From Candidatus Fibrimonadaceae bacterium (GTDB lineage: Bacteria > Fibrobacterota > Fibrobacteria > Fibrobacterales > Fibrobacteraceae), in the NCBI GenBank assembly GCA_031281345.1, contig JAITFN010000015.1:1-64000 (forward strand): a stretch of 64,000 nt of DNA, in the 5' to 3' direction. The position numbers and the translations under genes were made by a program. Every line of letters begins with the position of its first letter. The first letter of the stretch is position 1. Of this stretch, positions 6,056-49,599 are shown in pieces. The notes below the pieces were generated by a model, which saw nothing but the letters and a program-made list of their open reading frames with translations, made no database searches and was not told the origin of the DNA.

Positions 6056-6977
6056 AATAATTCTTTCCCCAATGGAAGGCGTTACGGATTTGCCGTTTCG
6101 CCGATTTATACGAGAGCTTTCCAAAGACAAGCAGCCTTTTTTCGTTTCGGAATTTTTGTCCACAGGTAGTTCTCTTTTTTTAACCCCTGTAAATACAAGG
6201 GCTGTTCGCTTTGATAAAGAAGAAGAACCATTTTGTATGCAGTTGTTTGGGCATAATGCAGAGAGGCTTTCCGCTGCGGCTTTGCAGGTACAGGAATTGG
6301 GAGCGGCTTTTGTTGAGCTCAACGCAGGCTGCCCAGCACCAAAAATCGCAAACAAAGGTTCTGGCTCTGGCTTGCTGAGGGATTTGCCAAATTTGCAAAA
6401 AATTTTACAATCTATGAAAAGTGTTTTGAAAATTCCGCTGTTTTTAAAATGCCGTTTAGGCTGGGATGAGAATTCCATAGTGATAAATGAGGTTTTGGAA
6501 ATGGCAGAGGGCTGTGGGGTAGAGCAATTAACCATTCATGGCAGAACAAAAGTGCAGGGCTACAAAGGCCTCGCGAATTGGAACGCAATAGGAGAAATAG
6601 CAGCGAAAGCAAAAATTCCAATAATTGGCAACGGCGATATAGACAGCGCAGAAAAAGCCTTGAATGCTGTTAAAAATTATGAAGTGAAAGGAGTAGCAAT
6701 AGGCAGAGCGGTTCTGCGCAATCCCTGGATTTTTTCGCAAATAGCAAATGCAGAAACAAAAAAAATAACAGCCTCGGATGCCTGCAATGCCGTTCTTCGC
6801 TACGAAAAATTGCTCAGAGCAGATTCTATGAGGGAAGGGCAAATCATAGGCAGATTAAAACAGCTTTCCGCAAGGCTCTGTTTGGAATTCTCACCGGATT
6901 TTCGGTTGAAGGTTTTGCACTCAGAGACTGTTCGTGAGATTTTAGATAACTGGGGAGCTATTGTTCAGACAATTTAA
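6012..6977 (+). CDS. dus: tRNA-dihydrouridine synthase
   Basis: FMN-dependent enzyme of 321 aa that reduces uridine to dihydrouridine in tRNA. It shows the TIM-barrel opening ILSPMEGVTDLPFRRF, the catalytic-Cys loop ELNAGCPAPKI and the FMN-phosphate loop IPIIGNGDID with GVAIGRAVLRNPWIF. The start is a TTG inside ndk, with GAAGAA upstream. A later ATG (SPMEG) would delete the first strand, so the TTG is preferred. The 3' end overlaps the convergent rnc gene by 36 bp. Which Dus subfamily it belongs to cannot be told by eye. Confidence 0.92.
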   Translation: MNTAQRIREQSLYSKIILSPMEGVTDLPFRRFIRELSKDKQPFFVSEFLSTGSSLFLTPVNTRAVRFDKEEEPFCMQLFGHNAERLSAAALQVQELGAAFVELNAGCPAPKIANKGSGSGLLRDLPNLQKILQSMKSVLKIPLFLKCRLGWDENSIVINEVLEMAEGCGVEQLTIHGRTKVQGYKGLANWNAIGEIAAKAKIPIIGNGDIDSAEKALNAVKNYEVKGVAIGRAVLRNPWIFSQIANAETKKITASDACNAVLRYEKLLRADSMREGQIIGRLKQLSARLCLEFSPDFRLKVLHSETVREILDNWGAIVQTI

Positions 6978-16350: not shown

Positions 16351-17178
16351 ATGGGCAAACTTAAACTCTGCGCGCTTGCTTTGGCCTTGGCTTTTTTTGC
16401 TATTGGTTGCGGAAAAAAAGAACCAAATGGGCTTGAAATAATAAAAAAACGTGGTTTTTTGCAGATTGCCGTTATGGGCGATGACCCGCCATTTGGTTAT
16501 ATAGACCACAGGGGCAAAAATCAGGGTTTTGAGATAGTATTTGCAAAAAGGCTTGCTTACGAGCTTTTTGGAGATTCCTCAAAAATTGAATTTATAATTG
16601 TTGACCCCATTGGCCGCTTTGATGTTTTGACAAACGGAAAGGCAGACGTAGTAATCGCGAATTTCACAAATACACCCGAAAGAGCCAAAATATTTGATTT
16701 TGCACATCCATATATGAAAGCCTCCATTAGCGTGATTTCGCCCAAAACCACCCCAATCAGAGACCTAAGTGAATTAGCTGGCAAAAAGTTGATTGTTCTC
16801 AAAGGCACTACCTCGGAAAAATATTTCTCAGAAAAACATCCAGAAATAGAACTTGTGACTTTTGGGCGGATAGACGAAACTTTTATAGCATTAAAAGACG
16901 GCAGAGGAGCGGCACTAGCACAAGATAATACCGTTACATTTGCATGGGCAAATGAAAATCCTGCTTTTGAAGTTGGAATTAGTTCCCTAGGCTCGGTTGA
17001 AGGCATTGCCCCCGCACTTAAAAAAGGCAACACCGAGTTGCTTAATTTCATAAACAAAACCATTGAGGACCTGGCAGAAGAACAATTTTTTCACAAAGAT
17101 TTTGAAGCAACGCTCAGAGCATTCATGGGTCCCAAAGCAAATCCCGATGATTTTGTGGTGGAAGGCGGAAAGATTTAG
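16351..17178 (+). CDS. Amino-acid-type solute-binding lipoprotein (SBP family 3)
   Basis: Periplasmic substrate-binding protein of 275 aa with lipobox AIGC (Cys20). The motif LKKRG-like IIKKRGFLQIAVMGDDPPFGY opens the family 3 fold, followed by GFEIVFAKRLAYELFG and the hinge segment AGKKLIVLKGTTSEKYF. Ligands in this family are polar amino acids. No permease or ATPase gene is adjacent, so it may serve a transporter encoded elsewhere or act as a sensor. TATATT ends 7 nt before the ATG with no Shine-Dalgarno. Confidence 0.88.
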   Translation: MGKLKLCALALALAFFAIGCGKKEPNGLEIIKKRGFLQIAVMGDDPPFGYIDHRGKNQGFEIVFAKRLAYELFGDSSKIEFIIVDPIGRFDVLTNGKADVVIANFTNTPERAKIFDFAHPYMKASISVISPKTTPIRDLSELAGKKLIVLKGTTSEKYFSEKHPEIELVTFGRIDETFIALKDGRGAALAQDNTVTFAWANENPAFEVGISSLGSVEGIAPALKKGNTELLNFINKTIEDLAEEQFFHKDFEATLRAFMGPKANPDDFVVEGGKI

Positions 17179-37000: not shown

Positions 37001-38202
37001 TGCATATCTCCCTTCTTCCTTCTCGCGAAAAATCCCTGCTGCGCCTTCACCCTTGGGTGTTCAGCGGTGCGGTGGATAAAGTGAATGGAAACCCAAAACT
37101 TGGCGAAAATGTTGAAATTGTTGATAGCAAAGGTAATTTTTTGGCTTGGGGTGCATATTCGCCAAATTCGCAGATAAGGGCGAGGGTTTGGAGTTTTGAG
37201 AGAAACGAAAAAATAGATAAAGATTTTTTTGTACGCAAGTTAAAGCGTTGTTTGGAGAGCCGTAGTGTTATGGGCTTTGAGCCAAAGGGAGCAAATGCAT
37301 TTCGCTTGGCTAATGCGGAGAATGATTTTTTGCCAGGGTGCATAATTGATTATTATGCGAGTTATTTAAGCGTTCAGTTGCTCTCTGCTGGCTGGGAAAT
37401 TTTTAGGGGAATTTTAGTTGAGTGTTTAATGGAAATTTTCCCGAATTGCAAAGGGATTATTGAGCGTTCAGATAGCAGTGTTCGCATAAAAGAGGGCTTG
37501 GAGCCGCAGGTGAAAATTTTAGCGGGGGAAATTCCTCAAAATGCGGTGGAAATAGAAGAAAATGGGTTAAAAATTTTGGTTGATTTGCACAGCGGGCACA
37601 AAACCGGATATTATTTAGACCAAAGAAATGCGAGAAAGAGAATTGGCGAGCTTGCCAAAGACAAGCGTGTTTTGAACTGCTTTTGCTATACCGGAGGATT
37701 TGGCTTGTTTGCCGCAAAGGGAGGCTCAAAATTTGTTAGGCAAGTTGATGTTTCTGCTTCTGCGCTTGAGCTTGCAAAGCAAAATGCCGCATTGAACGGC
37801 TTGGAAAGTGCAGAAATTGAATACGCAGAAGCAGATGTATTCACACACTTGCGCAAATGCAGGGACAAGGGCGAAACCTTTGACCTCATAATCCTAGATC
37901 CGCCTAAATTTGCGGAATCTACAAGCCAAGTGGAAAAGGCGGCAAAGGGCTACAAAGACATTAACTTATTGGCTATTAAACTGCTCGCTCCAGGTGGAAT
38001 GCTCGCCACATTTAGTTGCAGTGGGCATATAAGTGCTGAGTTATTCCAAAAAATAGCAGCAGATGCTGCAGTTGATGCAAAACGCCAAGTACAAATTTTG
38101 GAAAGTTTTAGACAGGCACAAGACCACCCAGTGCTAGGGTCATTCCCAGAGGGAATGTATTTAAAAGGATTGCTTTTATTTAGTGGCTCCGAGCAGATTT
38201 GA
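37000..38202 (+). CDS. Class I SAM-dependent rRNA methyltransferase (RlmI-like)
   Basis: A 400-aa protein with an N-terminal PUA domain (LLRLHPWVFSGAVDKVNG), a linker and a Rossmann methyltransferase domain. SAM and catalytic motifs include VLNCFCYTGGFGLFAAKGG, DLIILDPPKFAESTSQ and LATFSCSGH. RlmI methylates C1962 of 23S rRNA. The start is a GTG sharing its G with the previous stop. The final residues SGSEQI and the stop are encoded by antisense tRNA-Phe sequence (att copy A), so the gene ran into the convergent tRNA gene before element insertion. Confidence 0.9.
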   Translation: MHISLLPSREKSLLRLHPWVFSGAVDKVNGNPKLGENVEIVDSKGNFLAWGAYSPNSQIRARVWSFERNEKIDKDFFVRKLKRCLESRSVMGFEPKGANAFRLANAENDFLPGCIIDYYASYLSVQLLSAGWEIFRGILVECLMEIFPNCKGIIERSDSSVRIKEGLEPQVKILAGEIPQNAVEIEENGLKILVDLHSGHKTGYYLDQRNARKRIGELAKDKRVLNCFCYTGGFGLFAAKGGSKFVRQVDVSASALELAKQNAALNGLESAEIEYAEADVFTHLRKCRDKGETFDLIILDPPKFAESTSQVEKAAKGYKDINLLAIKLLAPGGMLATFSCSGHISAELFQKIAADAAVDAKRQVQILESFRQAQDHPVLGSFPEGMYLKGLLLFSGSEQI

Positions 38203-38226
38203 ACTGCTGACGCACGGATTTTCAGT
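38179..38226 (-). repeat. Attachment-site copy A: 3' part of tRNA-Phe
   Basis: 48 bp identical to the 3' half of tRNA-Phe at 47435-47482, from just outside the acceptor end through the T arm, variable loop and anticodon loop. Identity then breaks (CAGTGGCAAAT). Because the tRNA lies on the minus strand, this left copy is the displaced original 3' end, which marks the outer left border of the island. It overlaps the end of the RlmI-like gene. Confidence 0.93.
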
Positions 38227-38372
38227 GGCAAATGAAGCTGGAAATCATCGGATTCTTTTGAGTTTCGTGCATTCCATAATTAGCATTGCTTTGGCACTGT
38301 CATAAGACTGACACTTAAATTCCTTATGTTAATAATAATTTTATTATTTTAACCAAAAGTAGGAGAAATGTT

Positions 38373-38663
38373 ATGAAAAAAATACTTTTTATTGCCACTT
38401 GCTTATTCTTATTAAGCTGTTCATCTGAAAATGAAGATGATGAGTGGATTCAACCTAGAGCGTGCTTTAAATTGCTACCGCCCTGTGTTCCTTATCATGA
38501 CGAGTACACTTCTAAGGAGTGCAATTCAAGCGAGGTAATAGAACAAGCAACATTAACTCTTGAAGAACATGGATGCTTATTCAAGAAATCAGCTTGCTTA
38601 GAAAATGAAATTGAGGGTCGTGATAATGAAAAAAACATAAAGTGTGAGCGTGAATTAAATTAG
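38373..38663 (+). CDS. Small Cys-rich lipoprotein
   Basis: A 96-aa protein with lipobox LLSC (MKKILFIATCLFLLSCSS). The mature part has six Cys (ACFKLLPPCVPY, KECNS, HGCLF, SACLEN, IKCER), consistent with three disulfides. AGGAGAAATGTT precedes the ATG. No family recognised. It is the first gene inside element 1. Confidence 0.65.
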   Translation: MKKILFIATCLFLLSCSSENEDDEWIQPRACFKLLPPCVPYHDEYTSKECNSSEVIEQATLTLEEHGCLFKKSACLENEIEGRDNEKNIKCERELN

Positions 38664-38852
38664 TTATTCTACTTCGTAAGCCAAATTGTTTATTCTCAAA
38701 AAGCCATTCCAACGAACTTCAGCTCTATAAACAACATTGCGTTCCCCTTGAAGTAAAATGTTCCACTGACTAATAATCTCCTGCTCATCGTCAGCCAGCC
38801 CAATAGACCACGTGCTTTTTGCTATGAAAGGCACGAACCGTGTCATTTCCAT
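38664..38852 (-). CDS. Small hypothetical protein
   Basis: A 62-aa ORF that begins MEMTRFVPFIAKSTW and ends RWNGFLRINNLAYEVE. Its stop abuts the stop of the lipoprotein on the other strand. Composition is protein-like (Trp, aromatic, acidic residues), but no ribosome site is evident. Could be real or chance. Confidence 0.35.
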   Translation of the reverse strand: MEMTRFVPFIAKSTWSIGLADDEQEIISQWNILLQGERNVVYRAEVRWNGFLRINNLAYEVE

Positions 38853-38911
38853 GTCAATTATAGGAAGCTAGGGAACTCCTACACACTAAAATACCATACA
38901 TGGATTATTAA

Positions 38912-39112
38912 CTATTGCTTTCTGTCGGTTAAATCAAGTTCAAGACCGGTCTTAATGCAATTTGCAATAACACACACAAACACATAACCGCAAAAAATGT
39001 TCTCAATAACATCACATACATCTTTTGATAGAAAAAAGGGACATACAAAGATTAAGGTAAATAAGAAAATCATAATTCTAAACAGCCATTTATCAACTTT
39101 TATCTTTGTCAT
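38912..39112 (-). CDS. Small membrane protein, two TM helices
   Basis: A 66-aa protein with a basic N-terminus (MTKIKVDKWLFR) and two hydrophobic segments (IMIFLFTLIFVCPFFL and IENIFCGYVFVCVIANCI). It starts right after a GGAGG-containing copy of the repeated leader. It shares the opening MTKIK and upstream sequence with the 35-aa ORF next to it, suggesting duplication of a leader-plus-start cassette. Confidence 0.55.
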   Translation of the reverse strand: MTKIKVDKWLFRIMIFLFTLIFVCPFFLSKDVCDVIENIFCGYVFVCVIANCIKTGLELDLTDRKQ

Positions 39113-39127
39113 CTTATACCTCCATAG

Positions 39128-39164
39128 CTAATCTACAAAATTTCTCCGCAAGTGGATCAAATTA
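39128..39164 (-). repeat. Repeated intergenic module, copy 1 (37 nt)
   Basis: The 37-nt string CTAATCTACAAAATTTCTCCGCAAGTGGATCAAATTA (plus-strand reading) matches 40170-40206 at 35 of 37 positions. Its first part is also shared with 39501-39521. On the minus strand it forms the leader of the downstream gene and runs into the ATGGAGG ribosome site. Reuse of one leader for unrelated small genes suggests cassette-like duplication. Confidence 0.75.
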
Positions 39165-39173
39165 AAACAGAAA

Positions 39174-39281
39174 TTAAGGAATAAGCTCAATGAGCTTGAG
39201 AAGCAAAATCCATCCAAATACACTAAGCACTAAAGCACTTGTTGCTGGGCGTGCTTTCATAAACGATTTTATCTTTGTCAT
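39174..39281 (-). CDS. 35-aa single-TM micropeptide
   Basis: Too short for the ORF track. The minus-strand ATG at 39281 opens MTKIKSFMKARPATSALVL and continues into a hydrophobic helix ending LLLKLIELIP. It starts 1 bp after the stop of the upstream gene, so it could be translationally coupled. The first five residues match the 66-aa membrane protein. Whether it is expressed is not known; similar short hydrophobic peptides can be toxins or membrane-complex accessories. Confidence 0.45.
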   Translation of the reverse strand: MTKIKSFMKARPATSALVLSVFGWILLLKLIELIP

Positions 39282-39282
39282 C

Positions 39283-39492
39283 TTATACCCCCAAAGCATT
39301 ACAAATTTTCCTTATTAACCCGTGGTAAAACATAGCATTCATACTTTTGGAATCCATTAGATAATTATCATAATCCTTTACATAAAGCTCTAAGTAATTT
39401 GTGACATTATTTCTCATACCAATTAAATGCTCTGGATCATGCTCTTTTAGCAACTCAAAAAGTTTTAGCCATTTGTCTCTAGGTACCATCAT
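39283..39492 (-). CDS. Small hypothetical protein
   Basis: The ORF track starts at 39504, but that ATG belongs to the GGAG ribosome site of the shared leader. The ATG at 39492 (MMVPRDKWLKLFELL) sits 8 nt after GGAG and gives 69 aa. The protein is soluble and mixed charged, with no known motif. It is followed immediately by the 35-aa ORF. Confidence 0.5.
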   Translation of the reverse strand: MMVPRDKWLKLFELLKEHDPEHLIGMRNNVTNYLELYVKDYDNYLMDSKSMNAMFYHGLIRKICNALGV

Positions 39493-39500
39493 TTTACACT

Positions 39501-39521
39501 CCATAGCTAATCTACAAAATT
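39501..39521 (-). repeat. Repeated intergenic module, copy 2 (partial, 21 nt)
   Basis: CCATAGCTAATCTACAAAATT is shared exactly with 39122-39142. The copy overlaps the stop of the 132-aa gene and contains the ribosome site of the next gene. It is the shortest of the three copies. Confidence 0.7.
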
Positions 39522-39918
39522 ATTCCATGTCTCTTAACCAAAAAACTTTATTTCGTTTGTGCCACTCATAATTTGCGCAATAATTTTTATACCAAAAGTC
39601 TAGTCTAGTACTCATAGCTTCTATTTCTTTTTCCACTTCTTTGTCTATTTCATAAGGACAAAGTCCAGTTTCTACGCATGGATACCATGTAAGTTCTTCA
39701 CGAAACACCTCAGAATTAGTTGCAACTAAATTCCTATAAAAAGCATAGTATGCTTTAGTGTAATACTCTATAGGAATTTTTTTTAAATCAAGCTGTTTTT
39801 TTAAGTCACTAGCAAAGACCTTTTTTGTCATAACATCGTTATACATTTTACATGATTTATTTGTATCTGCCATAGAAATACTGGTCATTAGTGCAACTGC
39901 TACAAGAACTTTTTTCAT
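39520..39918 (-). CDS. Secreted hypothetical protein
   Basis: A 132-aa protein with a cleavable-type signal peptide (MKKVLVAVALMTSISMADT). The mature part is helical and Tyr/Trp-rich with four Cys (SCKMYNDV, WYPCVETGLCPYEI, KNYCANYEW). The upstream sequence AAGGAGAATAATTATGAAAAA is identical to that of the 49-aa gene, so the two share a leader. Function unknown. Confidence 0.6.
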   Translation of the reverse strand: MKKVLVAVALMTSISMADTNKSCKMYNDVMTKKVFASDLKKQLDLKKIPIEYYTKAYYAFYRNLVATNSEVFREELTWYPCVETGLCPYEIDKEVEKEIEAMSTRLDFWYKNYCANYEWHKRNKVFWLRDME

Positions 39919-40002
39919 AATTATTCTCCTTTTTTGGCTAAAGCCTTTTCCCTTTTGTTATGTCGTAATAACATAAAAATAATTCTGCCTCAGAATGAAA
40001 TT

Positions 40003-40152
40003 CTAAAATAAGGTTTTTCTCAATGGAATACCCTCGGCTAATTTCTCAAGAGCTGTTTTATTGTCTTCTTCGCTTGTCTTCATTTTAGAATAAGCGAATG
40101 CTGTTGAAGCCAAAGCCACGGCAAACGCAACTACTACGATTTTCTTTTTCAT
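40003..40152 (-). CDS. 49-aa secreted small protein
   Basis: The ORF-track start at 40191 is an artefact of the leader repeat. The ATG at 40152, preceded by AAGGAGAATAATT, gives MKKKIVVVAFAVALASTAFAYSK and a short mature peptide of about 29 aa ending GIPLRKTLF. A signal peptide on such a short product resembles secreted peptide precursors (bacteriocin- or signal-like), but nothing confirms this. Confidence 0.55.
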   Translation of the reverse strand: MKKKIVVVAFAVALASTAFAYSKMKTSEEDNKTALEKLAEGIPLRKTLF

Positions 40153-40169
40153 AATTATTCTCCTTTTAA

Positions 40170-40206
40170 CTAATCTACAAAATTTCTCCACAATTGGATC
40201 AAATTA
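40170..40206 (-). repeat. Repeated intergenic module, copy 3 (37 nt)
   Basis: Full-length copy of the 37-nt module, differing from 39128-39164 at two positions. It lies just upstream of the AAGGAG site of the 49-aa gene, in the same position relative to its gene as copy 1. Confidence 0.75.
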
Positions 40207-40272
40207 TTTTCATTTTTTCTGCTTGGATAGCACTTTCTTTATTAGAGGCGAAATCTTTAAGAAATGGACTTT

Positions 40273-40632
40273 TTAAATTTTAATTTTACCTTCTACAATT
40301 AGTTTTACCACTGTTTTAGTAAAAGTATCGCTGGAGTTATGACGTTTATGTTCTTTAAGTTCTTGTTTAATGGATTCTTTTTCATCATCTGTTAAATTAT
40401 TCCATCCTGGGTACTTCCTTTCCCATTTTGCTTCTTTTTTTATTTTTGCAATGATTTCATCAGTATAAACAATGTCATGCTCAGTAGGCGGTCTTAACAT
40501 TCTTAGAAAACCAGTGAAAATGTATTTATCGTCTAAATCTTCATCTGCTATAATGAATTTATCCCCGAATTTACTCTTAATCTCTTCTTTCAGAGCCTTT
40601 ATCTTATCATTTTTCTTAATAATTTCTGGCAT
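40273..40632 (-). CDS. Hypothetical soluble protein
   Basis: A 119-aa charged protein (about one third Lys, Glu and Asp) with no signal peptide. The sequence LRPPTEHDIVYTDEIIAKIKKEAKWERKYPGWNNLTDDEKESIKQ suggests helices. It resembles no family I know. It is divergent from the 112-aa gene at 40719, so the roughly 85-bp gap may hold a shared regulatory region. Confidence 0.5.
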   Translation of the reverse strand: MPEIIKKNDKIKALKEEIKSKFGDKFIIADEDLDDKYIFTGFLRMLRPPTEHDIVYTDEIIAKIKKEAKWERKYPGWNNLTDDEKESIKQELKEHKRHNSSDTFTKTVVKLIVEGKIKI

Positions 40633-40718
40633 AAATGTTACAATTTAGAAAAATCTTAACATTTTTGACTATTTGGGAAGCGACTATTAATACACATGTT
40701 AAACTTTTGGAGGCAACT

Positions 40719-41057
40719 ATGAAAAGTTCCCAAAACAATGCTGCGGATAGCCGCTCAAAGATGAAATTCTCTGAAAAAGCCAAATTTGACGATTTTAGGG
40801 ATTTTTCAAGGTACAATGACGAGCAATTAGCTTACGAATGTGTATTAGACTGTGGCTATTCCATTCAAGAGTATAATGAATGGAATAATTCTAGGCTGAT
40901 AAAAACGGAACTAATAAACAAGTTTGTAGTAAAACGAATCAAAGCTGGGGAATTACCCAAAGAGGTAATAGAGGATTTTCATCTTCTATTCATAGAAGAT
41001 GTTGATGCTTTGGAAGTCTTGAATAAGCTTTCGGTTGTTTTCATGGATTGGAAGTAG
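40719..41057 (+). CDS. Hypothetical soluble protein
   Basis: The start is moved from 40635 to the ATG at 40719, because TTGGAGG lies 8 nt upstream. The result is 112 aa beginning MKSSQNNAADSRSKMKFSEKAKFDDF. The protein is acidic and helical (LPKEVIEDFHLLFIEDVDALEVLNKL), with no known domain. TTGACT at 40665-40670 followed 17 bp later by TAATAC is a possible promoter. Confidence 0.55.
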   Translation: MKSSQNNAADSRSKMKFSEKAKFDDFRDFSRYNDEQLAYECVLDCGYSIQEYNEWNNSRLIKTELINKFVVKRIKAGELPKEVIEDFHLLFIEDVDALEVLNKLSVVFMDWK

Positions 41058-41080
41058 AACTATAATTGCATAAATAAAAA

Positions 41081-41172
41081 TGGCCACGGGTGTTTGGCCA
41101 TAACTCATCAGAGATACACCCTCACGTTTCCTAGGCAAAATGTGAGTATTAACAAGAAGCCCTAGCGTGAGG
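41081..41172 (+). promoter_or_regulatory. Two hairpins in the leader of the 222-aa gene
   Basis: Hairpin 1 is TGGCCA-8 nt-TGGCCA (41081-41100). Hairpin 2 pairs CCTCACG(ttt)CTAGG (from 41119) with CCTAG/CGTGAGG (to 41172), 12 bp with one bulge. It ends 8 nt before the ATG at 41181, so folding would hide the GTGAGG ribosome site. This suggests translational control of the gene. Confidence 0.5.
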
Positions 41173-41180
41173 TACAAATT

Positions 41181-41849
41181 ATGAGAACAAACATAAAACT
41201 ATGCCATGAGGAAGTTGAATACAAAAAAACTCTTGGACGGTATGGAAAAGAAATGGTTAAACAAAACCATGACAACCTTAAGGTAATGCTTAACTGGCTT
41301 ATGCAGGAAGATACTTACCCTTCTTACGAAGAGTATAAGGAAGCATTTTTAGAGCAAGGCAAAAATAGGCAATGGACACCAGAGGCACGAACAGAAGGAG
41401 CTATTCAGTATCTTTGGAAACATCAAGCAGGAAAATGGAACCAGCAGAGGAATTTGAAACCATTTCAAAACACTTCAGAGCATTCCATCTCATCTCACCC
41501 ATCTCATTCCACTTCACCCATTACACCCATTTCATTACATAAGAGTTCATCAGAGACTACAGAGAACACTAGAGAAACACCAGAGGCACCTAGAGAATCT
41601 CAGAGAAATACAGAGACTACAGAGAACTCAGAGACTACAGAGAAACAACAAATTATTGAACTTTTGAATGAACATAAAGAAGTTCTAGAAGAACAAATAA
41701 AGTCTTATGAAGGTTTCTGTTCTTACAAAGAAGTTTATTTAAATGAACTCTTTACTCTGTTTAAGACAAAGCATCCTAACTTAGTTTATAATGATAAAAG
41801 TCTAAGACATAACTTTATCACCTGCATTTATGACTTCTACAGGCACTAG
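41181..41849 (+). CDS. Hypothetical protein with Thr/Glu/Ser repeat linker
   Basis: A 222-aa protein in three parts: a charged helical N-terminus (about 1-90, HEEVEYKKTLGRYGKEMVKQNHDNLKVML), a low-complexity linker rich in Ser, Thr, Glu and Pro (about 95-155, including ETTENTRETPEAPRE and NTETTENSETTE), and a helical C-terminus (about 160-222). The linker DNA contains a short imperfect tandem repeat (AGAGACTACAGAGAA). The overall plan resembles small element-borne DNA-binding or replication accessory proteins, but no motif confirms it. Confidence 0.5.
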   Translation: MRTNIKLCHEEVEYKKTLGRYGKEMVKQNHDNLKVMLNWLMQEDTYPSYEEYKEAFLEQGKNRQWTPEARTEGAIQYLWKHQAGKWNQQRNLKPFQNTSEHSISSHPSHSTSPITPISLHKSSSETTENTRETPEAPRESQRNTETTENSETTEKQQIIELLNEHKEVLEEQIKSYEGFCSYKEVYLNELFTLFKTKHPNLVYNDKSLRHNFITCIYDFYRH

Positions 41850-41868
41850 TTTGTTTGAAAAGGATTTT

Positions 41869-41999
41869 ATGGGCCTGACAACCCGCACGGGTACCCTTCT
41901 CCCCCGCTGGGTCTCTCACGCTAATACCCCTAGTTCCTTGTCAAATGTGTTGGTTGGTAGGAACAGGTGGGCTAATGCAAACGAGGGAACTAACCCTTT
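41869..41999. other. GC-rich, structured non-coding stretch in element 1
   Basis: Between the 222-aa gene and att copy B lie about 130 bp much richer in G+C than the surrounding island. They contain ACCCGCACGGGT (41881-41892), TAGTTCC paired with GGAACTA (41931-41937 / 41986-41992), an alternative GTTCC/GGAAC pairing, and a repeated GCTAAT. The ORF-track entry across it has no ribosome site and unlikely composition. A structured RNA or a DNA-processing site is possible. Confidence 0.4.
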
Positions 42000-42135
42000 A
42001 TCTCAGGCATTATAAATAATTGCATTCTTTTTGTGCCACTCCCCGCAATTGAAATTAGATTATCCACTAGGTTTTATCGCAAGTGACATGGAAATGTCAT
42101 AATCTATGGGTGGAGAAATGGCAAAACCAAAGAGA

Positions 42136-42187
42136 TTTAGTGGCTCCGAGCAGATTTGAACTGCTGACGCACGGATTTTCAGTCCGA
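42136..42187 (-). repeat. Attachment-site copy B: internal 3' part of tRNA-Phe
   Basis: 52 bp identical to 47435-47486, of which the first 48 bp are also identical to copy A. It lies between element 1 and element 2 in the same orientation as A and the intact tRNA. It marks a junction between two tandem insertions or an internal hybrid att site. Confidence 0.93.
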
Positions 42188-42614
42188 TAGTATCCAAGAG
42201 GATTACAGTCAAATCTAGTAAATCTAACCGTTGTTCCTAAATTACCAAACACTTCCACCATTTTCATTATTTCTTGTGTCACTTTAATGTCACCTCACTA
42301 AACCTTATTTTAAAACTAACTTTTTTCTATAAAAGAGTTCATTTTATTTTCAAAAAATAAATAAATCGTGCCGGCACGAAGCCGATAAAATAGGGGTTTG
42401 TGGGTAGGTGGTGTTTTAACAGGTTCTAACAAATTCTAGGGGTGGTTCTAGGTGGGGTGGTGGGTTTGTAGGGTAAAGGGTAGGGGTCAAGGGTTCAACC
42501 CCAAAATCAAACAAGTAAATAATTTAGGGGGTGTTAAGTGAATTTGTTTTTTCACTATTATTTTTTTTTATTTCACTTAATACACCCAAAAAATTTCTAG
42601 GGCTGTGTGTCTTT
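42188..42614. other. Left end of element 2: arm-site-like repeat, 12-bp palindrome and G-rich tract
   Basis: These 427 bp contain no credible gene. They contain TTGTGTCACTTTAATGTCACC (42274-42294), matching TTGTGTCAGTTTAGTGTCAGG at the other end of the element (47351-47371). They also contain the perfect palindrome CGTGCCGGCACG (42367-42378), then a G-rich plus strand with runs such as GGGGTGGTTCTAGGTGGGG (about 42391-42495), able in principle to form G-quadruplexes, and an inverted GGGGT/ACCCC pair near 42483. Recombination or replication signals are likely. Confidence 0.55.
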
Positions 42615-43712
42615 TTACTTATTAGATTTTCTACGGTTGTCTTCCTTACACAACATTTCACAATTTTCAATTATTGTTTTACCACCCAAACTCCAAGGGG
42701 TTATATGGTCAGCTTCCATTTCCTCTATTTTAAATTTTTTACCACACTTTTTACAAATACCGTCTTGTTTTTCATAAACTTTTAATTTCTCTTTGTCAGT
42801 AAAAGAACGAATACTCAAATGTTTTTCCTCACCATCTATTAAATACTCATAAATTCCTTTTTTACTTGTAACATCATCATCATCAATAAGTTTTTTTATT
42901 TGTTTTTCCAAATCATTTGAATTAAATTTTTTGTCCTTAAAATTGTTGTAAAGGTTTCCCCAATTTATACCTTTCATTTCCTTTCTGTAATTTGGAAAAA
43001 TAACATTTACCCAATTTATTACACCTTGAAAATACAGCCATAATTCATTAGCGTTTGGTGTGTGTTGGTGTTCAGCCATATATTTTTCTATGTTGTTTTC
43101 ACTAATCCATTTTATAGCCGTTTCCAAATACTCTTGTCTGTTTGGGTGTCCATTTAAATAATCTTTGGATATATTGTAGGCTGGGCAATTATTTTTACTA
43201 AAATACCTTTTAGCATCTGTAAGCCATTCACCTGTGTAAATAGCATTTCTTAATTCTTGGTCTGTTAGTTTTTCACCAGCTATGTTTATTATTTTGAACC
43301 AGTCCAATTTTTCCCTGTCTGTTCCTTCACAAAAATAAATCATTAGTTTGTATTTAAGGATTTTTTCTTGTTCCTCTTTTTCTAGGTTATGAAAATACTG
43401 TGGCTTTCCTTTTGTAAATTCTATTGAAAAATTACCAACAACATATTCACAAATACTTATGGTTCTTTGTTGTCCGTCTAAAACTTCATAGGTTTCATTT
43501 TCGTTTTTAGCCCAATACATAACATTAAGGGGAAAGTTTTTCCAAATTGTTTCCAAAACGGCGTTACGTTTTTCGTCTTTATACACAAATTCCCTTTGGT
43601 ATTTTGGTCTTATGTTTAACCTACCATCATACCCAACAACACCTTCCTCGTCTTTGTTGGTGTAATTTTTTACAACCTCTTCCACAGGGATTTCTTTCAA
43701 ATCTATTTTCAT
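42615..43712 (-). CDS. DUF262-HNH endonuclease
   Basis: A 365-aa protein. The N-terminal DUF262 (ParB-like) domain shows IRPKYQREFVY (about residue 35) and YEVLDGQQRTISICEYV (about residue 75); the DGQQR motif is the family's nucleotide-binding/hydrolysis signature. A helical middle region follows, then a C-terminal HNH nuclease with CKKCGKKF, EADHITPWSLGGKTIIENCEMLC and a closing Asn/Lys. DUF262-HNH proteins include GmrSD-type type IV restriction enzymes. Here a methyltransferase is directly upstream and the AAGGAG site for this gene lies in the methyltransferase's last codons, so the two are coupled. Confidence 0.88.
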   Translation of the reverse strand: MKIDLKEIPVEEVVKNYTNKDEEGVVGYDGRLNIRPKYQREFVYKDEKRNAVLETIWKNFPLNVMYWAKNENETYEVLDGQQRTISICEYVVGNFSIEFTKGKPQYFHNLEKEEQEKILKYKLMIYFCEGTDREKLDWFKIINIAGEKLTDQELRNAIYTGEWLTDAKRYFSKNNCPAYNISKDYLNGHPNRQEYLETAIKWISENNIEKYMAEHQHTPNANELWLYFQGVINWVNVIFPNYRKEMKGINWGNLYNNFKDKKFNSNDLEKQIKKLIDDDDVTSKKGIYEYLIDGEEKHLSIRSFTDKEKLKVYEKQDGICKKCGKKFKIEEMEADHITPWSLGGKTIIENCEMLCKEDNRRKSNK

Positions 43713-43713
43713 T

Positions 43714-44664
43714 TTATTTCTCCTTTTTTTTGATTAAAAGACGGGCATAGGTTTCTTTGTTATTAAGTTTAAATCTATGTCCATAGTTTGGGTTGTCTTC
43801 AACATATCTATCAATACCAATAATTTCAAATTGTTGTGGGTTGTATTTGTCTAAAAAGGTAATTGGAACACCCATTACACCATCATAATCCATAGGGATT
43901 TCTTTGGTTACATCTACATTTATGGCTTTGTAATTGTCATACTTTGGGTAATCTTTTTTATTGTATTTTTTGTAGAGAATTAAATTTTCGTGTCGTTCTT
44001 TGTAATCCAAATTTGTGAACCAACGAACACCTTTAACACGAATATAGTGGTTTCCCTCGTTGTCTATTCTATAACCAGCTGCTTTCAAAGGATAATCTTT
44101 TGGAACTTTAAATTCCCTGTCTCCACTATGAATACTAACCCCAAGCCAAATTTTATTTTCTTTAATTAACTTGAAAATCTCTTTGTAAGTTATAGAATTT
44201 ACATTACCAATAATTACAAACTTCCTTTTATATTCCACAAGTTGTTCTACATATTCTCTAAACAAACTAAAAGGGGGATTTGTTATTACAATATCACTTT
44301 TTTTCAAAATTTCCACACATTCTTTACTTCTAAAATCCCCATTTTCTATTAAAATTGTTTTAACACCCACCATAATATCATTGTCATTACCACCCTCATA
44401 TTCCAATTTATATGTTTCACCTTGTTTGAAAATATCCTCATATACAAAGTGTGTGGAGATAAGTTTTTTAATTCCCAATTTTTCAAAATTCAAGTGAAAA
44501 TACTTCCAAAAATTACTTAATTCTGGGTCATCACAATTACAGAAAATAACCTTACCTTTTAGGTGTTCCTTGTAATGGTTTATTTCTCGTTCTATGTCTG
44601 GTAGTTGTGTATAGAACTCGTCTTTTTTGGCTTTACTAGCTAGGTGTAAATTTAAATTACCCAC
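43714..44664 (-). CDS. EcoRI-family adenine-specific DNA methyltransferase
   Basis: A 316-aa protein starting at a GTG. Catalytic motif IV is DIVITNPPFSLFREYVEQL (about residue 130). The N-terminus ASKAKKDEFYTQLPDIEREINHY and later segments GNHYIRVKGVRWFTNLDY and DYDGVMGVPITFLDKYNP fit the M.EcoRI family (N6-adenine, SAM-dependent). It presumably protects DNA from the coupled nuclease. The long AT-rich repeat region directly upstream is a likely control region. Confidence 0.88.
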   Translation of the reverse strand: MGNLNLHLASKAKKDEFYTQLPDIEREINHYKEHLKGKVIFCNCDDPELSNFWKYFHLNFEKLGIKKLISTHFVYEDIFKQGETYKLEYEGGNDNDIMVGVKTILIENGDFRSKECVEILKKSDIVITNPPFSLFREYVEQLVEYKRKFVIIGNVNSITYKEIFKLIKENKIWLGVSIHSGDREFKVPKDYPLKAAGYRIDNEGNHYIRVKGVRWFTNLDYKERHENLILYKKYNKKDYPKYDNYKAINVDVTKEIPMDYDGVMGVPITFLDKYNPQQFEIIGIDRYVEDNPNYGHRFKLNNKETYARLLIKKKEK

Positions 44665-45195
44665 AGATTTCTAATGTAGAAAAAATATTGAAAATTTACT
44701 CCCAAAGCCTAGAAAACTATTACAACAACCCAAATTCACGTAATTCTTACGTCAAAATCCATTCTAACCCTGTGGGTGTGGGTGTATGAATTTGCTGGCT
44801 GAATTTGTAAAATTACCCCTTTTATTTTTAATTCTAGCCCTTTGATTTCGTTTTAGGTAATAACACCTATTCACAAATTCAAGGGGTTTATCCACCTTTT
44901 CTAATTGTAAATAAATATGTTTGGTAGTGGTGTAGTTTCAAGTGTTCCACGCATACTTACACAATAGTTCTATAAGTATAATGAATTTGAAAATACACCA
45001 CTAAAACAATAAATTATTATAACATAAGAATATAAAACATTTGATATTACACCATTAAAAACATTAAACAAAAAAATAATAAATAATATAAAAACAAAAA
45101 ATAAAAAGTATGAAAAAATAATAATTTATTAAGGTGTAATTTCATAAATCAGATATATGAAGTGGTAAGTGTGTCAAGTGTTTGAAACTACACCA
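44665..45195. promoter_or_regulatory. AT-rich region with iteron-like TACACCAYTA repeats
   Basis: These 531 bp contain no credible gene. The motif TACACCACTA or close variants occurs five times in both orientations: 44926-44935 (inverted), 44994-45003, 45048-45057, about 45130-45139 (inverted variant TTAAGGTGTA) and 45189-45198. The outer copies form longer inverted repeats (GTGGTGTAGTTTCAAG ... TTGAAACTACACCAC) around about 230 bp of nearly pure A+T. A separate palindrome ACGTAATTCTTACGT is at 44738-44752. This could be a replication origin or an operator cluster for the methyltransferase operon. Confidence 0.55.
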
Positions 45196-45873
45196 CTATA
45201 ATTTATTCTCTTTCAAAACCTTTTTAATTGTCCTTTTGTCCGTTTTTAATTCTTGGTGTATTTTATTAATAGAATAACCTTGTTTGTGAAGGTTTATTAT
45301 TTTCTCTTTTTTTACATCTTTTATTTTATTCCCAGCCCCCTCTCTTTTACCACCACGTTTTATTTCCACACCATTTTTTCTATTGTATTCATTTAACCAT
45401 TTTCTAATAGTGGGTTTGGTATAAGGTTTAGGTTTCCTTCTAACCAATGAAGCCAACATATTTGCTTCTTTTATGTTTCCATTTTTTAACCACCAATAAA
45501 AGAAAATTTCTTTGGCTCTGTGGTCATTACTGATTTTTTTCATTATAAAATCTGGTAACCATTTTGTTTCACTTGTTTTGGGTGGCTCATAAGGCTTGTA
45601 GGTTTGTTTCCATTTAGGGATTTGTCTAAAAAGTTGATTTACTTGGTTGTTTATTGTTTTAGCATTGTGTTCAGTATGTTTTAACCTGTAATGTTTTGAT
45701 TTGTTTATTATTTCCTGTATTGTGGTTTTTAACCAACCTCTGGTAACGCTAAAATAAGGGTCTTTGTCCCATTCCATTTTAACAGCCATTCTAACAGAAT
45801 AATAAATTACTTGGTGGTGACGGTCAGCCCATTCAGCTGATTTTTCTATATAATCGTCTAGTGTTTTTTTCAT
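45196..45873 (-). CDS. HTH-containing element protein (possible regulator or initiator)
   Basis: A 225-aa basic protein. The N-terminal part is helical with many aromatics (HHQVIYYSVRMAVKMEWDKDPYF). The middle has KRGGKREGAGNKIKD, a linker common in phage and plasmid proteins. The C-terminus is a resolvase/Hin-type helix-turn-helix (EKIINLHKQGYSINKIHQELKTDKRTIKKVLKE). The gene ends inside the last iteron-like repeat. DNA binding is likely; whether it initiates replication or regulates is not decidable here. Confidence 0.6.
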   Translation of the reverse strand: MKKTLDDYIEKSAEWADRHHQVIYYSVRMAVKMEWDKDPYFSVTRGWLKTTIQEIINKSKHYRLKHTEHNAKTINNQVNQLFRQIPKWKQTYKPYEPPKTSETKWLPDFIMKKISNDHRAKEIFFYWWLKNGNIKEANMLASLVRRKPKPYTKPTIRKWLNEYNRKNGVEIKRGGKREGAGNKIKDVKKEKIINLHKQGYSINKIHQELKTDKRTIKKVLKENKL

Positions 45874-46011
45874 TTACAACCTTTCCCCCTTCAAAAAAAT
45901 TACACACCCAAAAAAACAATTTTCTTGGGAAAGGTGGGTAGTTTTGAAGGCTCTACCACACCTGTTTTATTTATTTGGGAAAAATAGTAAATAACCTAAA
46001 AAGGTATTTTT

Positions 46012-46140
46012 ATGAATAACGAAAATTCAGTTCCAAACAAAATTCTAAAATGGGCAGAAAACAAAGAAAAAAGGGAAGGAAAATCACGTAAGGTTTTGTA
46101 TAATCCAAAAGAGAAAGTGTCTAAAACACAAGGAAAATAG
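46012..46140 (+). CDS. 42-aa basic small ORF next to integrase
   Basis: Too short for the ORF track. The ATG at 46012 follows AAAAAGGTATTTTT and opens MNNENSVPNKILKWAENKEK; the rest is very basic, ending KVSKTQGK. Its stop is 3 bp from the integrase stop, converging. Size and charge would suit a recombination directionality factor, but there is no motif to support that. Confidence 0.45.
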   Translation: MNNENSVPNKILKWAENKEKREGKSRKVLYNPKEKVSKTQGK

Positions 46141-46142
46141 GG

Positions 46143-47333
46143 TTAGAAATAATCCTCTTCAAGCCACTTCAACAATTCCTTTCTCTCCTTGATAGTTTCC
46201 TCAAATCCAGCCTTGAAATGTTTGGGTTCAAATTTTCCATAAAGGTCTGTGGTGATACTTGTTCCAGCGTGCCCCATTTGATAGCTCACCATTTGTAATG
46301 GAGTTTGGGCTAGTAGCTTATTCACAGCAAAAGTATGTCTCAACCTGTGTGGGTGTATTCCTTTGTAATACCTACCCAAAACCAGCCTAAAAGCATTTGT
46401 GGTTGTTTTGAATATATTGCCCCTCTCAAATAGTTTTACTAAGGTGGGGCAAATAGGGAGATTTCTATTGGCTGAACTTGTTTTACCTGTGGTTTTAATG
46501 TTTCCAACAAAATCGCCATGTAAAGAAATAATGTTATTTTTAAGGCTGTCTGGTTTTATAGCATTTAATTCGCCCAACCTTATACCTGTAATCAAAAGAA
46601 ACAAAGCTATATCGTGGTAAGATTTATTTGTTTCAAGATTTTTCAATAATGTTTTTTGTTCCTCAATGCTCAAAGGCTCAACTACCTTTTTATTTTTTCC
46701 AACCACAGCCTTAACCTTAACCGACCCCCAAAGGTTTCCGTTATGAATCCAGCCTTGTAAAGCCGCTAGTTTGGCTAGCTGTTTCAAAATGTCAAGCCCT
46801 TTTTTAATCGTGCTAGCACTTACAATTCCTTTGTGTTTGCTGTATCTTTTTTGGGAACGCCAATTTATAAAATCATAGGCGGTGCTTAATTTTAGGTCAT
46901 TGGTTGTTTTAAGTTCATAATCATTGAAAAAATCAAAGAATAACCTTTCACAACCAAAGTGCTCAACGTCTTGTAAATCCTCAGCATTTTTACTTTTTTT
47001 CCAAAGCTCAAAAAGTTCTCTCAACGAGTGTGTTCCCAATTTCTCAACACCTGAATTGTAGGGTAGTGTTATGGTGGGTGGTATTATTAAACCACGTATA
47101 AATTCCTTTTTACCCTCCTCGTCTAGGCTTACATACTGAATTACGATTTGTTTCACCTCTTGGGGTGTAATGGTTTGTCTTCTCTCTTTGGGTAGTAAAA
47201 CCATTATAGTTTCGTGGGCTGTTTTACACAACCTTAAAAACGTTTTATTCAGTTTTGGAACGGCGTAGGATATTTCCTTGTAGCCTCTTGTTTTATCCCT
47301 GATTAGCCCTGTTTTCTCAACCAAACAAGCCAT
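46143..47333 (-). CDS. int: Tyrosine site-specific integrase
   Basis: A 396-aa phage-type recombinase. An N-terminal arm/core-binding region is followed by the catalytic domain. Active residues are Arg in LLITGIRLGELNA, His-x-x-Arg in IHPHRLRHTFAVNKLL, His in MVSYQMGHAGTS and Tyr in TTDLYGKFEPKHF. It starts 107 bp from the 3' end of tRNA-Phe, the usual position of an integrase relative to its attachment site. It is the only recombinase in the tandem island. Confidence 0.95.
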   Translation of the reverse strand: MACLVEKTGLIRDKTRGYKEISYAVPKLNKTFLRLCKTAHETIMVLLPKERRQTITPQEVKQIVIQYVSLDEEGKKEFIRGLIIPPTITLPYNSGVEKLGTHSLRELFELWKKSKNAEDLQDVEHFGCERLFFDFFNDYELKTTNDLKLSTAYDFINWRSQKRYSKHKGIVSASTIKKGLDILKQLAKLAALQGWIHNGNLWGSVKVKAVVGKNKKVVEPLSIEEQKTLLKNLETNKSYHDIALFLLITGIRLGELNAIKPDSLKNNIISLHGDFVGNIKTTGKTSSANRNLPICPTLVKLFERGNIFKTTTNAFRLVLGRYYKGIHPHRLRHTFAVNKLLAQTPLQMVSYQMGHAGTSITTDLYGKFEPKHFKAGFEETIKERKELLKWLEEDYF

Positions 47334-47439
47334 ATATCCCCCTGTTTTTCTTGTGTCAGTTTAGTGTCAGGTGATAAAATGGGATAAAAACTTTGAAAAA
47401 TGAAACCCCTTAAAGTCTTCACATTCAAGGGGTTTTTAG

Positions 47440-47512
47440 TGGCTCCGAGCAGATTTGAACTGCTGACGCACGGATTTTCAGTCCGACGCTCTACCAACTG
47501 AGCTACAGAGCC
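47440..47512 (-). tRNA. tRNA-Phe (anticodon GAA)
   Basis: The minus-strand sequence GGCTCTGTAGCTCAGTTGGT folds into a full cloverleaf. The acceptor GGCTCTG pairs with CGGAGCC (one G-U). The anticodon loop is CTGAAAA (GAA at 47477-47479), the T arm contains GTTCAAATC, and the discriminator base is A. CCA is not encoded. It is the integration target of the elements to its left; its 3' half is supplied by element 2. Confidence 0.96.
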
Positions 47513-47691: not shown

Positions 47692-49377
47692 TTAACCTAC
47701 CAAACCCAAAACCGCTTGCGGTAAGCTATTAGCTTGCGCCAACATGCTCGTGGAAGCCTGCACCATAATTTGATTTCTGGTGAAGTTTGTGGTTTCCGTT
47801 GCAAAGTCGGTATCGCGAATGCGACCTTCTGCGTCTTGGATGTTGTACTCCATAGAAGCTATGTTGTTTATGGTGTAGTCAAGACGGTTGATGTAGGTAC
47901 CAATGGCTGCACGGTTGCCGCTTATCACCTTTATGGTTTCCTGGAGCTTGTCAATAGCTCTTTGGGCACCTTCGCGGGTGTCAATGGTCTGGGCTTGCAA
48001 GCCCAAACCTTTAACGTCAACTGCAACGTAGTTCACCTTTATCTGGTTGGCTGCTGCACCACCCAAGCCTGTTGAGTAGTTTGGACCAACGTGCAGAATC
48101 TCAGAAGCCGCCGTGCCTGTGGCTATGTCCTTTTCGGCATAAATTTTGTAGGCATCTTTGAGGTCGCTGATGTTTTTCTGCCAAGCAGCTACCTCGTCTT
48201 TTGAGTCACCTACAGTCATTTTTCCCACATCAATTCCAAGCACAGCTTTTAAGTCGGCCTGCATTCCCTCAGAAGCTCTTGAACCAAAGATTGCACCCAG
48301 AGCAGACCACCTATCCTCATCAGAGCCAGTTCTGGCAACACTTATCTGGGCTATGATTCTTTCAAGAGAACCAATACCAGTGGTGGTTGTGAATGTATTA
48401 ACGGCAGCTATATCCGAAGTCGCAATGTAATTTAACATAAAGTTTCTGGTCCTTGCTGCACCAGCTGCGATAGATCCTACTCCTACATCGGCTGATTGAT
48501 AGTTAATTAAAGCATCCCAAGCTTCTCTCAGGAAGGTGTTTAACGTTTGGACAGTTTTCATATTGCTGGCTGTTCTTTCGTCATCCAAAAAATTTCTATC
48601 TGTCATCCATTGCACGATATTGGTGTTCAATCGGTCGTTGCCAAGATTGACTGTGCTTAAGCTAGTGCTATCCCCAGCCCAAGTTACAGTAAAAGCTTTC
48701 AAGACATCTTCTATATTGGCATCGGTCAGTATTCCCGCTTTTGCTAGACCATCTGTTGGATCCAACAATACCTTGTTGATACCATTTATAGCCGTATTTA
48801 TTGCAGCGGCACCACCACCCAGAGTGGTTGTCAAGGATGCAAAACCACCTTTCAAGTCTTGACCAAAGTATTTGTAAACTACGTTAGCGGCTTCCTGAAA
48901 AGCGATTTCCTTGTTGTAAGGGTCAAGTTTTGTTGCAGCGAAGCTCTTGTTCGGGTCAACATCAAAGAGCAGCACGTTTTTGCCGTTGTAGTCAGTGTTT
49001 TTGGCTACGCGGTCCATTTCCTTAGTGAGAGCTTGGAACTCGTCGTTAAGGTACATACGCTCGGTGCTTGTCAGAGTATCGTTGGCGGATTGCACAGCCA
49101 ATTCCTTCTGCCTTTGCATCATATTGGTGATTTCGCTGAGAGCGCCTTCTGCTATTTGCAGAGCAGCTTGCCCGTCTTGGGAATTCCGTTTGGCTTTACC
49201 CAACCCACGAATTTGCGTTCGCATTTGTTCACTCATCGCCAGTCCCGCGGCATCGTCTTGGGCACGATTTATCCTTAAGCCTGTTGAGAGCTTTTCCAGT
49301 GACTTTGTCATAGAGTTGTCGTTTTGAAACAACGCCTGTTGAGTCACCATAGCACGAATGTTATGGTTTATTTGCAT
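47692..49377 (-). CDS. Flagellin
   Basis: A 561-aa filament subunit. The conserved N-terminal D0/D1 region (MQINHNIRAMVTQQALFQNDNSMTKSLEKLSTGLRINRAQDDAAGLAMSEQM) and C-terminal D1/D0 region (EYNIQDAEGRIRDTDFATETTNFTRNQIMVQASTSMLAQAN) frame a variable central part of about 270 residues. This shows the organism is, or descends from, a flagellated lineage. A GGAGG ribosome site, structured leader and sigma-28-like promoter lie upstream. Confidence 0.97.
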   Translation of the reverse strand: MQINHNIRAMVTQQALFQNDNSMTKSLEKLSTGLRINRAQDDAAGLAMSEQMRTQIRGLGKAKRNSQDGQAALQIAEGALSEITNMMQRQKELAVQSANDTLTSTERMYLNDEFQALTKEMDRVAKNTDYNGKNVLLFDVDPNKSFAATKLDPYNKEIAFQEAANVVYKYFGQDLKGGFASLTTTLGGGAAAINTAINGINKVLLDPTDGLAKAGILTDANIEDVLKAFTVTWAGDSTSLSTVNLGNDRLNTNIVQWMTDRNFLDDERTASNMKTVQTLNTFLREAWDALINYQSADVGVGSIAAGAARTRNFMLNYIATSDIAAVNTFTTTTGIGSLERIIAQISVARTGSDEDRWSALGAIFGSRASEGMQADLKAVLGIDVGKMTVGDSKDEVAAWQKNISDLKDAYKIYAEKDIATGTAASEILHVGPNYSTGLGGAAANQIKVNYVAVDVKGLGLQAQTIDTREGAQRAIDKLQETIKVISGNRAAIGTYINRLDYTINNIASMEYNIQDAEGRIRDTDFATETTNFTRNQIMVQASTSMLAQANSLPQAVLGLVG

Positions 49378-49380
49378 AGT

Positions 49381-49469
49381 GGTTACCTCCTTGCACAGTT
49401 CAAACCTCGGGCATCCTTGCCTTCGGCGTTAAACCCTTTTCCGGCACTCGCCGGCAACCCAGGTTTAAC
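49381..49469 (-). promoter_or_regulatory. Structured 5' leader of flagellin mRNA
   Basis: On the minus strand GTTAAACC (49462-49469) pairs with GGTTTAAC (49428-49435), enclosing CCGGC-GAGT-GCCGG (49441-49454). A competing pairing is available: GGTTGCC (49453-49459) is complementary to GGTAACC (49381-49387), which overlaps the GGAGGT ribosome site. Two mutually exclusive folds, one hiding the ribosome site, suggest regulation of flagellin translation by a protein, RNA or ligand. No known riboswitch consensus was recognised. Confidence 0.55.
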
Positions 49470-49489
49470 ATTTGGCTCTTTTAGTTAAG

Positions 49490-49517
49490 TTATAGGCTTG
49501 TTTTTGAGAAAAATTTA
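49490..49517 (-). promoter_or_regulatory. Sigma-28 (FliA)-type flagellin promoter
   Basis: On the minus strand TAAA (49514-49517) is followed by 16 nt and GCCTATAA (49490-49497). The consensus is TAAA-N15-GCCGATAA, so the -10 element matches 7 of 8. Its position about 110 nt before the flagellin ATG fits a leadered flagellin transcript. Confidence 0.75.
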
Positions 49518-49599
49518 ACCAAATCGCAATGATTTGCACCTATTGCAAAAAATAAAAAGGATTAGTTTGTAAATTTATGTGTATATTGCCCGAATTGTA

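Follow-up and report, generated by a model that had tools for sequence, protein, structure and literature searches.

A probable CsrA-controlled flagellin leader with an additional covarying hairpin in termite-gut Fibrobacterota

Control of flagellin translation by CsrA and its antagonist FliW has been described in several bacteria. The flaA 5'UTR of C. jejuni contains two ANGGA stem-loops, the second of which lies over the ribosome site, and shows compensatory changes (PMC4894983). In B. subtilis the hag leader has two CsrA sites, one of them over the Shine-Dalgarno sequence, and fliW is located directly before csrA (PMC6529632, PMC7652899). Treponema denticola flaB1/flaB2 combine a fliW-csrA pair with predicted CsrA sites near several flagellin Shine-Dalgarno sequences (PMC9481697). 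In E. coli glgC, CsrA is tethered at a hairpin site of high affinity and from there bridges to a site at the Shine-Dalgarno sequence; this is a glycogen gene with four sites and antagonism by sRNA instead of FliW (PMC7652899).

We analyzed a window of 64,000 nucleotides from the draft genome (85 contigs) of a termite-gut member of the Fibromonadaceae, phylum Fibrobacterota, and compared the leader of its flagellin gene (start codon ATG at 49377, minus strand) with these systems. As in C. jejuni flaA, the gene is of the sigma-28 type, a hairpin loop holds the first of two ANGGA sites, the second overlaps the ribosome site, the stems carry compensatory changes and FliW, here by analogy, would be the antagonist (PMC4894983). 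The flaA leader measures 45 nt and consists of SL1 and SL2 only, whereas ours is about 110 nt long and carries an extra conserved two-level hairpin, which we call P1. CsrA binding was measured for flaA (PMC4894983) and is predicted here. It shares with hag the two CsrA-type sites and the order of fliW and csrA, but B. subtilis has one flagellin gene, whereas at least five leader copies could compete for CsrA here, and no P1-like domain is mentioned for hag in the available parts of the sources (PMC6529632, PMC7652899). The T. denticola sites are predictions from a different phylum and come without P1 (PMC9481697). A limited literature search returned no paper on CsrA control of Fibrobacterota flagellin, which is not proof of absence. 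The CsrA part of the leader follows a known kind of flagellin leader, of which the added P1 makes it a variant.

Table 1. Positions of the leader elements and the flagellin gene in the window.
Feature	Positions	Strand	Details
Sigma-28-type promoter	49490..49518	minus	TTAAA 49518-49514, 16 nt, GCCTATAA 49497-49490
P1 hairpin	49428..49469	minus	outer stem 49469-49461/49436-49428; inner stem 49454-49450/49445-49441; loop GAGT 49449-49446
P2, CsrA-type hairpin (BS1)	49404..49427	minus	covariation; phylum-wide GGA-loop test
P2 outer pairs	49427-49425/49406-49404	minus	
P2 inner parts	GGC 49421-49419; GCC 49412-49410	minus	loop AAGGAT 49418-49413 (GGA 49416-49414)
BS2	49385..49394	minus	GCAAGGAGGT; GGA 49390-49388 within the Shine-Dalgarno sequence
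GGTTGCC, 5' half of the earlier alternative pairing (rejected)	49453..49459	minus	
GGTAACC, 3' half of the earlier alternative pairing (rejected)	49381..49387	minus	
Flagellin gene	47692..49377	minus	561 aa; Flagellin_N 144 bits and Flagellin_C 84 bits (Pfam)

The preliminary description had placed a leader of about 105 nt behind a sigma-28-like promoter. This agrees with the promoter box at 49518-49490, which gives a leader of about 105-110 nt with the transcription start taken from the promoter position. Such a promoter occurs 140-147 bases (163 once) 5' of the start codon in 19 of the 23 scanned leaders of this kind, and fliA is present in the host genome. In flagellin arrays, second and third genes that have no sigma-28 promoter of their own and stand behind terminator-like hairpins still retain the entire leader including P1, which argues for an action on the RNA rather than on transcription start. 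Five flagellin copies in the host genome share this leader, the other four being found on contig C76 (DNA identity 78-83%), and the nearest matches to the window flagellin are 94% identical. We gathered 104, later 120, distinct flagellin upstream regions from relatives through matches to the flagellin N-terminus. This kind of leader is common to at least 25 distinct flagellin leaders from the host genus and one sister genus.

No Rfam family reaches its gathering score on the leader, the best being Proteo-phage-1, whose 13 bits (E 8.4) fall short of the cut-off of 42. The earlier remark that the leader matched no known type holds for Rfam, but it overlooked the CsrA-type flagellin leader. This type can be recognized without an Rfam match, since its two GGA motifs, in a hairpin loop and in the Shine-Dalgarno sequence respectively, occur alongside the csrA-fliW pair.

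The first of the two GGA motifs is displayed by hairpin P2, which follows directly 3' of P1 with the sequence GCC-GAA-GGC-AAGGAU-GCC-CGA-GGU. Its core at 49421-49410, GGC-AAGGAU-GCC, places a GGA in a hairpin loop upstream of the ribosome site and fits the CsrA SELEX consensus RUACARGGAUGU (PMC7652899) in both loop position and sequence. P2 covaries, with five of the six pairs of helices 3 and 4 changed on both sides in the sets of 23 and of 26 leaders, although its predicted pair probabilities in the window's own sequence are low (0.17-0.41). One relative (L042) builds a 9-bp stem, CUCAGGGUU/AACCCUGAG, around an identical AAGGAU loop, and other relatives enclose the GGA in stems such as UUAAGC/GCUUAG, GGGCGGC/GCUGCCU and AAAAAGAAUA/UAUUCUUUUU. 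In a motif-blind assay of 77 dereplicated flagellin upstream regions from across the phylum, trimmed of their Shine-Dalgarno region, we took for each of the 64 triplets the best-scoring hairpin that encloses it and compared it with dinucleotide shuffles. GGA ranked top in hairpin loops with a z of 19.5, followed by AGG (7.8) and GAU (5.7), which rank next because both overlap AGGAU, and all others stayed below 2.8. The stems around the loop vary freely across the phylum; position 2, for example, is CG in 23, GC in 15, AU in 8 and UA in 5 cases. Most of the loop GGA motifs are 35-46 nt upstream of the start codon, and a further cluster occurs at about 50-58 nt.

The second GGA overlaps the ribosome site within CAAGGAGG at 49393-49386. 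Of 90 flagellin leaders, 66 have ACAN in front of GGAGG, compared with 1 of 14 other genes with GGAGG, a small control set (p 3e-6), and within the SELEX consensus it is ACA-GGA that does not vary (PMC7652899). The window copy departs from the usual ACAN-GGAGG in that it reads GCAAGGAGG, with GCAA. In the window 23 nt separate the two GGA motifs, which falls within the bridging range of a CsrA dimer, at least 10 and at most 63 nt with an optimum above 18 (PMC7652899).

In the host genome fliW (C64:1-333, cut by the contig end) and csrA (C64:351-506) lie side by side. The encoded CsrA has a long C-terminal tail and retains the equivalents of L4 and R44 in an alignment with the solved CsrA/RsmA proteins 2jpp, 5dmb and 1y00; PDB relatives of both CsrA and FliW include 5dmb, a CsrA-FliW complex. 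Among 61 genomes, csrA was found in 27 of 33 flagellin-bearing relatives and fliW in 28 of 33, while neither occurred in the 28 relatives lacking flagellin; the Fisher p-values of 7e-12 and 2e-12, respectively, overstate the case because relatedness is ignored and the loss of flagella in the family was a single large event (PMC4704652). Neither gene was found in G008 (78% complete), where the leaders are present, or in G057 and G059, two drafts of one genus (94% and 91% complete). The flagellins of the latter two (L154-L156) have GGA-loop hairpins despite the lack of a detected csrA or fliW, a discrepancy that may reflect missing contigs or a diverged regulator.

We consider it very probable that the leader in the window is controlled by CsrA and that flagellin translation is blocked until FliW removes CsrA. 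The observed structure, its two sites, their conservation across the phylum and the genes suggest binding, repression and release along the following lines. Sigma-28 would start the transcript about 110 nt before the flagellin gene, as the promoter indicates, and the RNA would fold into P1 and then the short P2 displaying AAGGAU in its loop, a fold supported by covariation. Judging from the consensus, the spacing and the presence of csrA, a CsrA dimer would bind the GGA of P2 and reach the Shine-Dalgarno GGA 23 nt further on, keeping ribosomes off. As in the Bacillus system, and in line with the adjacent fliW-csrA genes, export of flagellin would free FliW, which would bind CsrA and release the mRNA; once flagellin accumulates, it would hold FliW and translation would be turned off again.

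P1, located upstream of these sites, consists of an outer stem in which GTTAAACCT pairs with GGGTTTAAC (nine pairs including a terminal U-G) and an inner stem of CCGGC with GCCGG, separated by an asymmetric internal loop (GRGUUG/AAA) and closed by a GARY terminal loop. A two-level hairpin of 8 bp plus 5 bp had been proposed from the window alone, and covariation in 23 leaders confirms it far beyond chance, with 9 of its 14 pairs altered on both sides (helix 1 5/9, helix 2 4/5). For the full structure of 25 pairs, 92.2% of cells are standard pairs and 14 pairs changed on both sides, where shuffles would give 7.3. Its covariation score of 0.366 exceeds the 0.219 +/- 0.012 of shuffled alignments and is matched by 0 of 500 shuffles in a statistic that ignores the relatedness of the leaders; with the partner slid by 1-3 bases it reaches at most 0.130. 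A covariance-model alignment of 26 leaders, fitted to the structure and hence biased towards it, yielded 0.479 versus 0.256. Compensation is evident from single copies, as GUUAAACC/GGUUUAAC in the window corresponds to UGCCAAAUU/AAUUUGGCA in the copy before L008 6118, while L093 has GAUUAAC/GUUAAUC and L042 has CCAGU-GAGU-ACUGG. By folding energy alone the window leader is unremarkable (z -1.04).

Across 101 genomes of the family, P1 is found in the host genus and one sister genus, with weak matches (E > 0.01) elsewhere. Where the leader model matches strongly (E < 1e-8), the match precedes a flagellin, falls at a contig end or is a relic between flagellins, and we therefore rejected P1 as a widespread RNA.

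Such relics occur between divergent flagellins: L008 has degenerate leader copies at 6613-6687 (+) and 6756-6826 (-), L169 at 339-445 (+) and about 434-521 (-), some of them with sigma-28-like promoters, and in L169 a leader is followed by ATG TAA. These copies are probably remnants of lost flagellin genes and may act as CsrA-binding RNA. On the minus strand of L040 (G008:C51, about 16823-17015) the whole leader, P1 and P2, is tandemly duplicated behind a single promoter. The host genus also has a second class of flagellins (L083 at G000:C40:1000-1900, L045, L047, L057, L060, L087 and L089-L091), with a sigma-54-like promoter TGGCACGATTATCGCAT, neither P1 nor P2, and the Shine-Dalgarno sequence inside a small hairpin AACAAAGGAGUUUGUU; rpoN is present. 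The two classes recall the C. jejuni pair of sigma-28 flaA and sigma-54 flaB. Elsewhere in the window, 52 bases of the tRNA-Phe gene (47439-47512, minus) recur in two further copies, at 42136-42187 (100%) and at 38179-38230 (94%). An integrase gene (46143-47333) adjoins these repeats (window 38179-47486), and the region includes an EcoRI-type adenine methylase (43714-44664, 427 bits). This looks like two tandem integrated elements at tRNA-Phe, one of which bears the methylase.

The preliminary description had attributed regulation to the RNA itself, toggling between an open and a closed state as P1 competes with a pairing of GGTTGCC and GGTAACC over the Shine-Dalgarno sequence. Translational regulation through the leader is well supported, although by another mechanism, and the mutually exclusive folds over the ribosome site were not borne out. 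Both pairings can be drawn in the window sequence and forcing the alternative costs just about 2.3 kcal/mol, but GGTTGCC and GGTAACC pair in 69.6% of cells compared with 69.8% after shuffling (70.0% compared with 69.1% in a second alignment), slid versions score equally, and 14-18 of 23-26 leaders lack the two outermost G-C pairs. The partition function assigns the pairing a probability of about 0.01 per pair in the window. A riboregulator that switches its own Shine-Dalgarno sequence has two exclusive stems, both conserved; in the related leaders the two-level hairpin is strongly supported, whereas the alternative stem stays at shuffle level, neither conserved nor covarying. The match is due to chance, and such a switch is highly improbable. 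Another internal switch, in which AGGGUU of the 3' arm of P1 would pair with AACCCU before the Shine-Dalgarno sequence, extend P2 and free the ribosome site, is unlikely. There 77-80% of cells pair, covariation reaches 0.210 against 0.154 +/- 0.024 (6/500) with slid versions at or below 0.106, and for a few relatives, e.g. L137 and L130, the pairing gives the minimum-energy fold. This signal is weak and comes from a statistic that ignores relatedness, the central pairs are absent in about 8 of 26 leaders, and in the window the segment reads AACUGU, which breaks the pairing (probability 0.01).

P1 and P2 could also be thought of as merely stabilizing the mRNA or as RNase processing signals, with an incidental loop GGA and CsrA uninvolved. 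Although the stable P1 hairpin lies close to the inferred 5' end and the promoterless tandem copies come after terminator hairpins, this reading is quite improbable, as it leaves unexplained why GGA is the top loop triplet across the phylum within freely varying stems, why the second site has its ACAN context and why csrA and fliW are associated. Least credible is that the leaders are alike simply because the genes are young duplicates: the five copies in the host genome, at 78-83% DNA identity, would fit, but compensatory changes extend across genera and the same GGA-loop architecture recurs with unrelated stems in other families and classes.

CsrA control, our preferred reading, gives no account of the covariation of P1. 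P1 forms a conserved domain of its own and matches P2 in the strength of its conservation. A role as third CsrA site was rejected, since its GARY loop lacks GGA. As an insulator of the fold it was likewise rejected: deleting P1 or shuffling its 5' arm leaves the predicted P2 and site accessibility unchanged, and shuffling all of P1 in silico lowers the exposure of BS1 slightly, from 0.83 to 0.77. Our best guess is that P1 protects or matures the 5' end of the abundant flagellin mRNA, or docks another protein. More specifically, P1 might be a novel RNA domain that joined a CsrA leader in the Fibromonadaceae and has a partner of its own, recruiting a second factor such as FliW, an RNase or a localization factor, a possibility that we regard as doubtful; FliW is reportedly a weak binder of the B. 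subtilis hag leader. Were P1 to have its own partner, the flagellin mRNA would be under two RNA-protein contacts rather than one.

The best-known members of the Fibrobacterota are non-motile. On comparative evidence, our data extend CsrA-FliW control of flagellin to this phylum, and they indicate that the CsrA signal can be read from sequence alone as GGA loops held by drifting stems. In the leaders of two genera the CsrA-type sites are accompanied by the covarying upstream hairpin P1. The C. jejuni flaA leader is said to act as a CsrA sponge, and in genomes with at least five such leaders one flagellin mRNA might serve as a CsrA sponge for the others.
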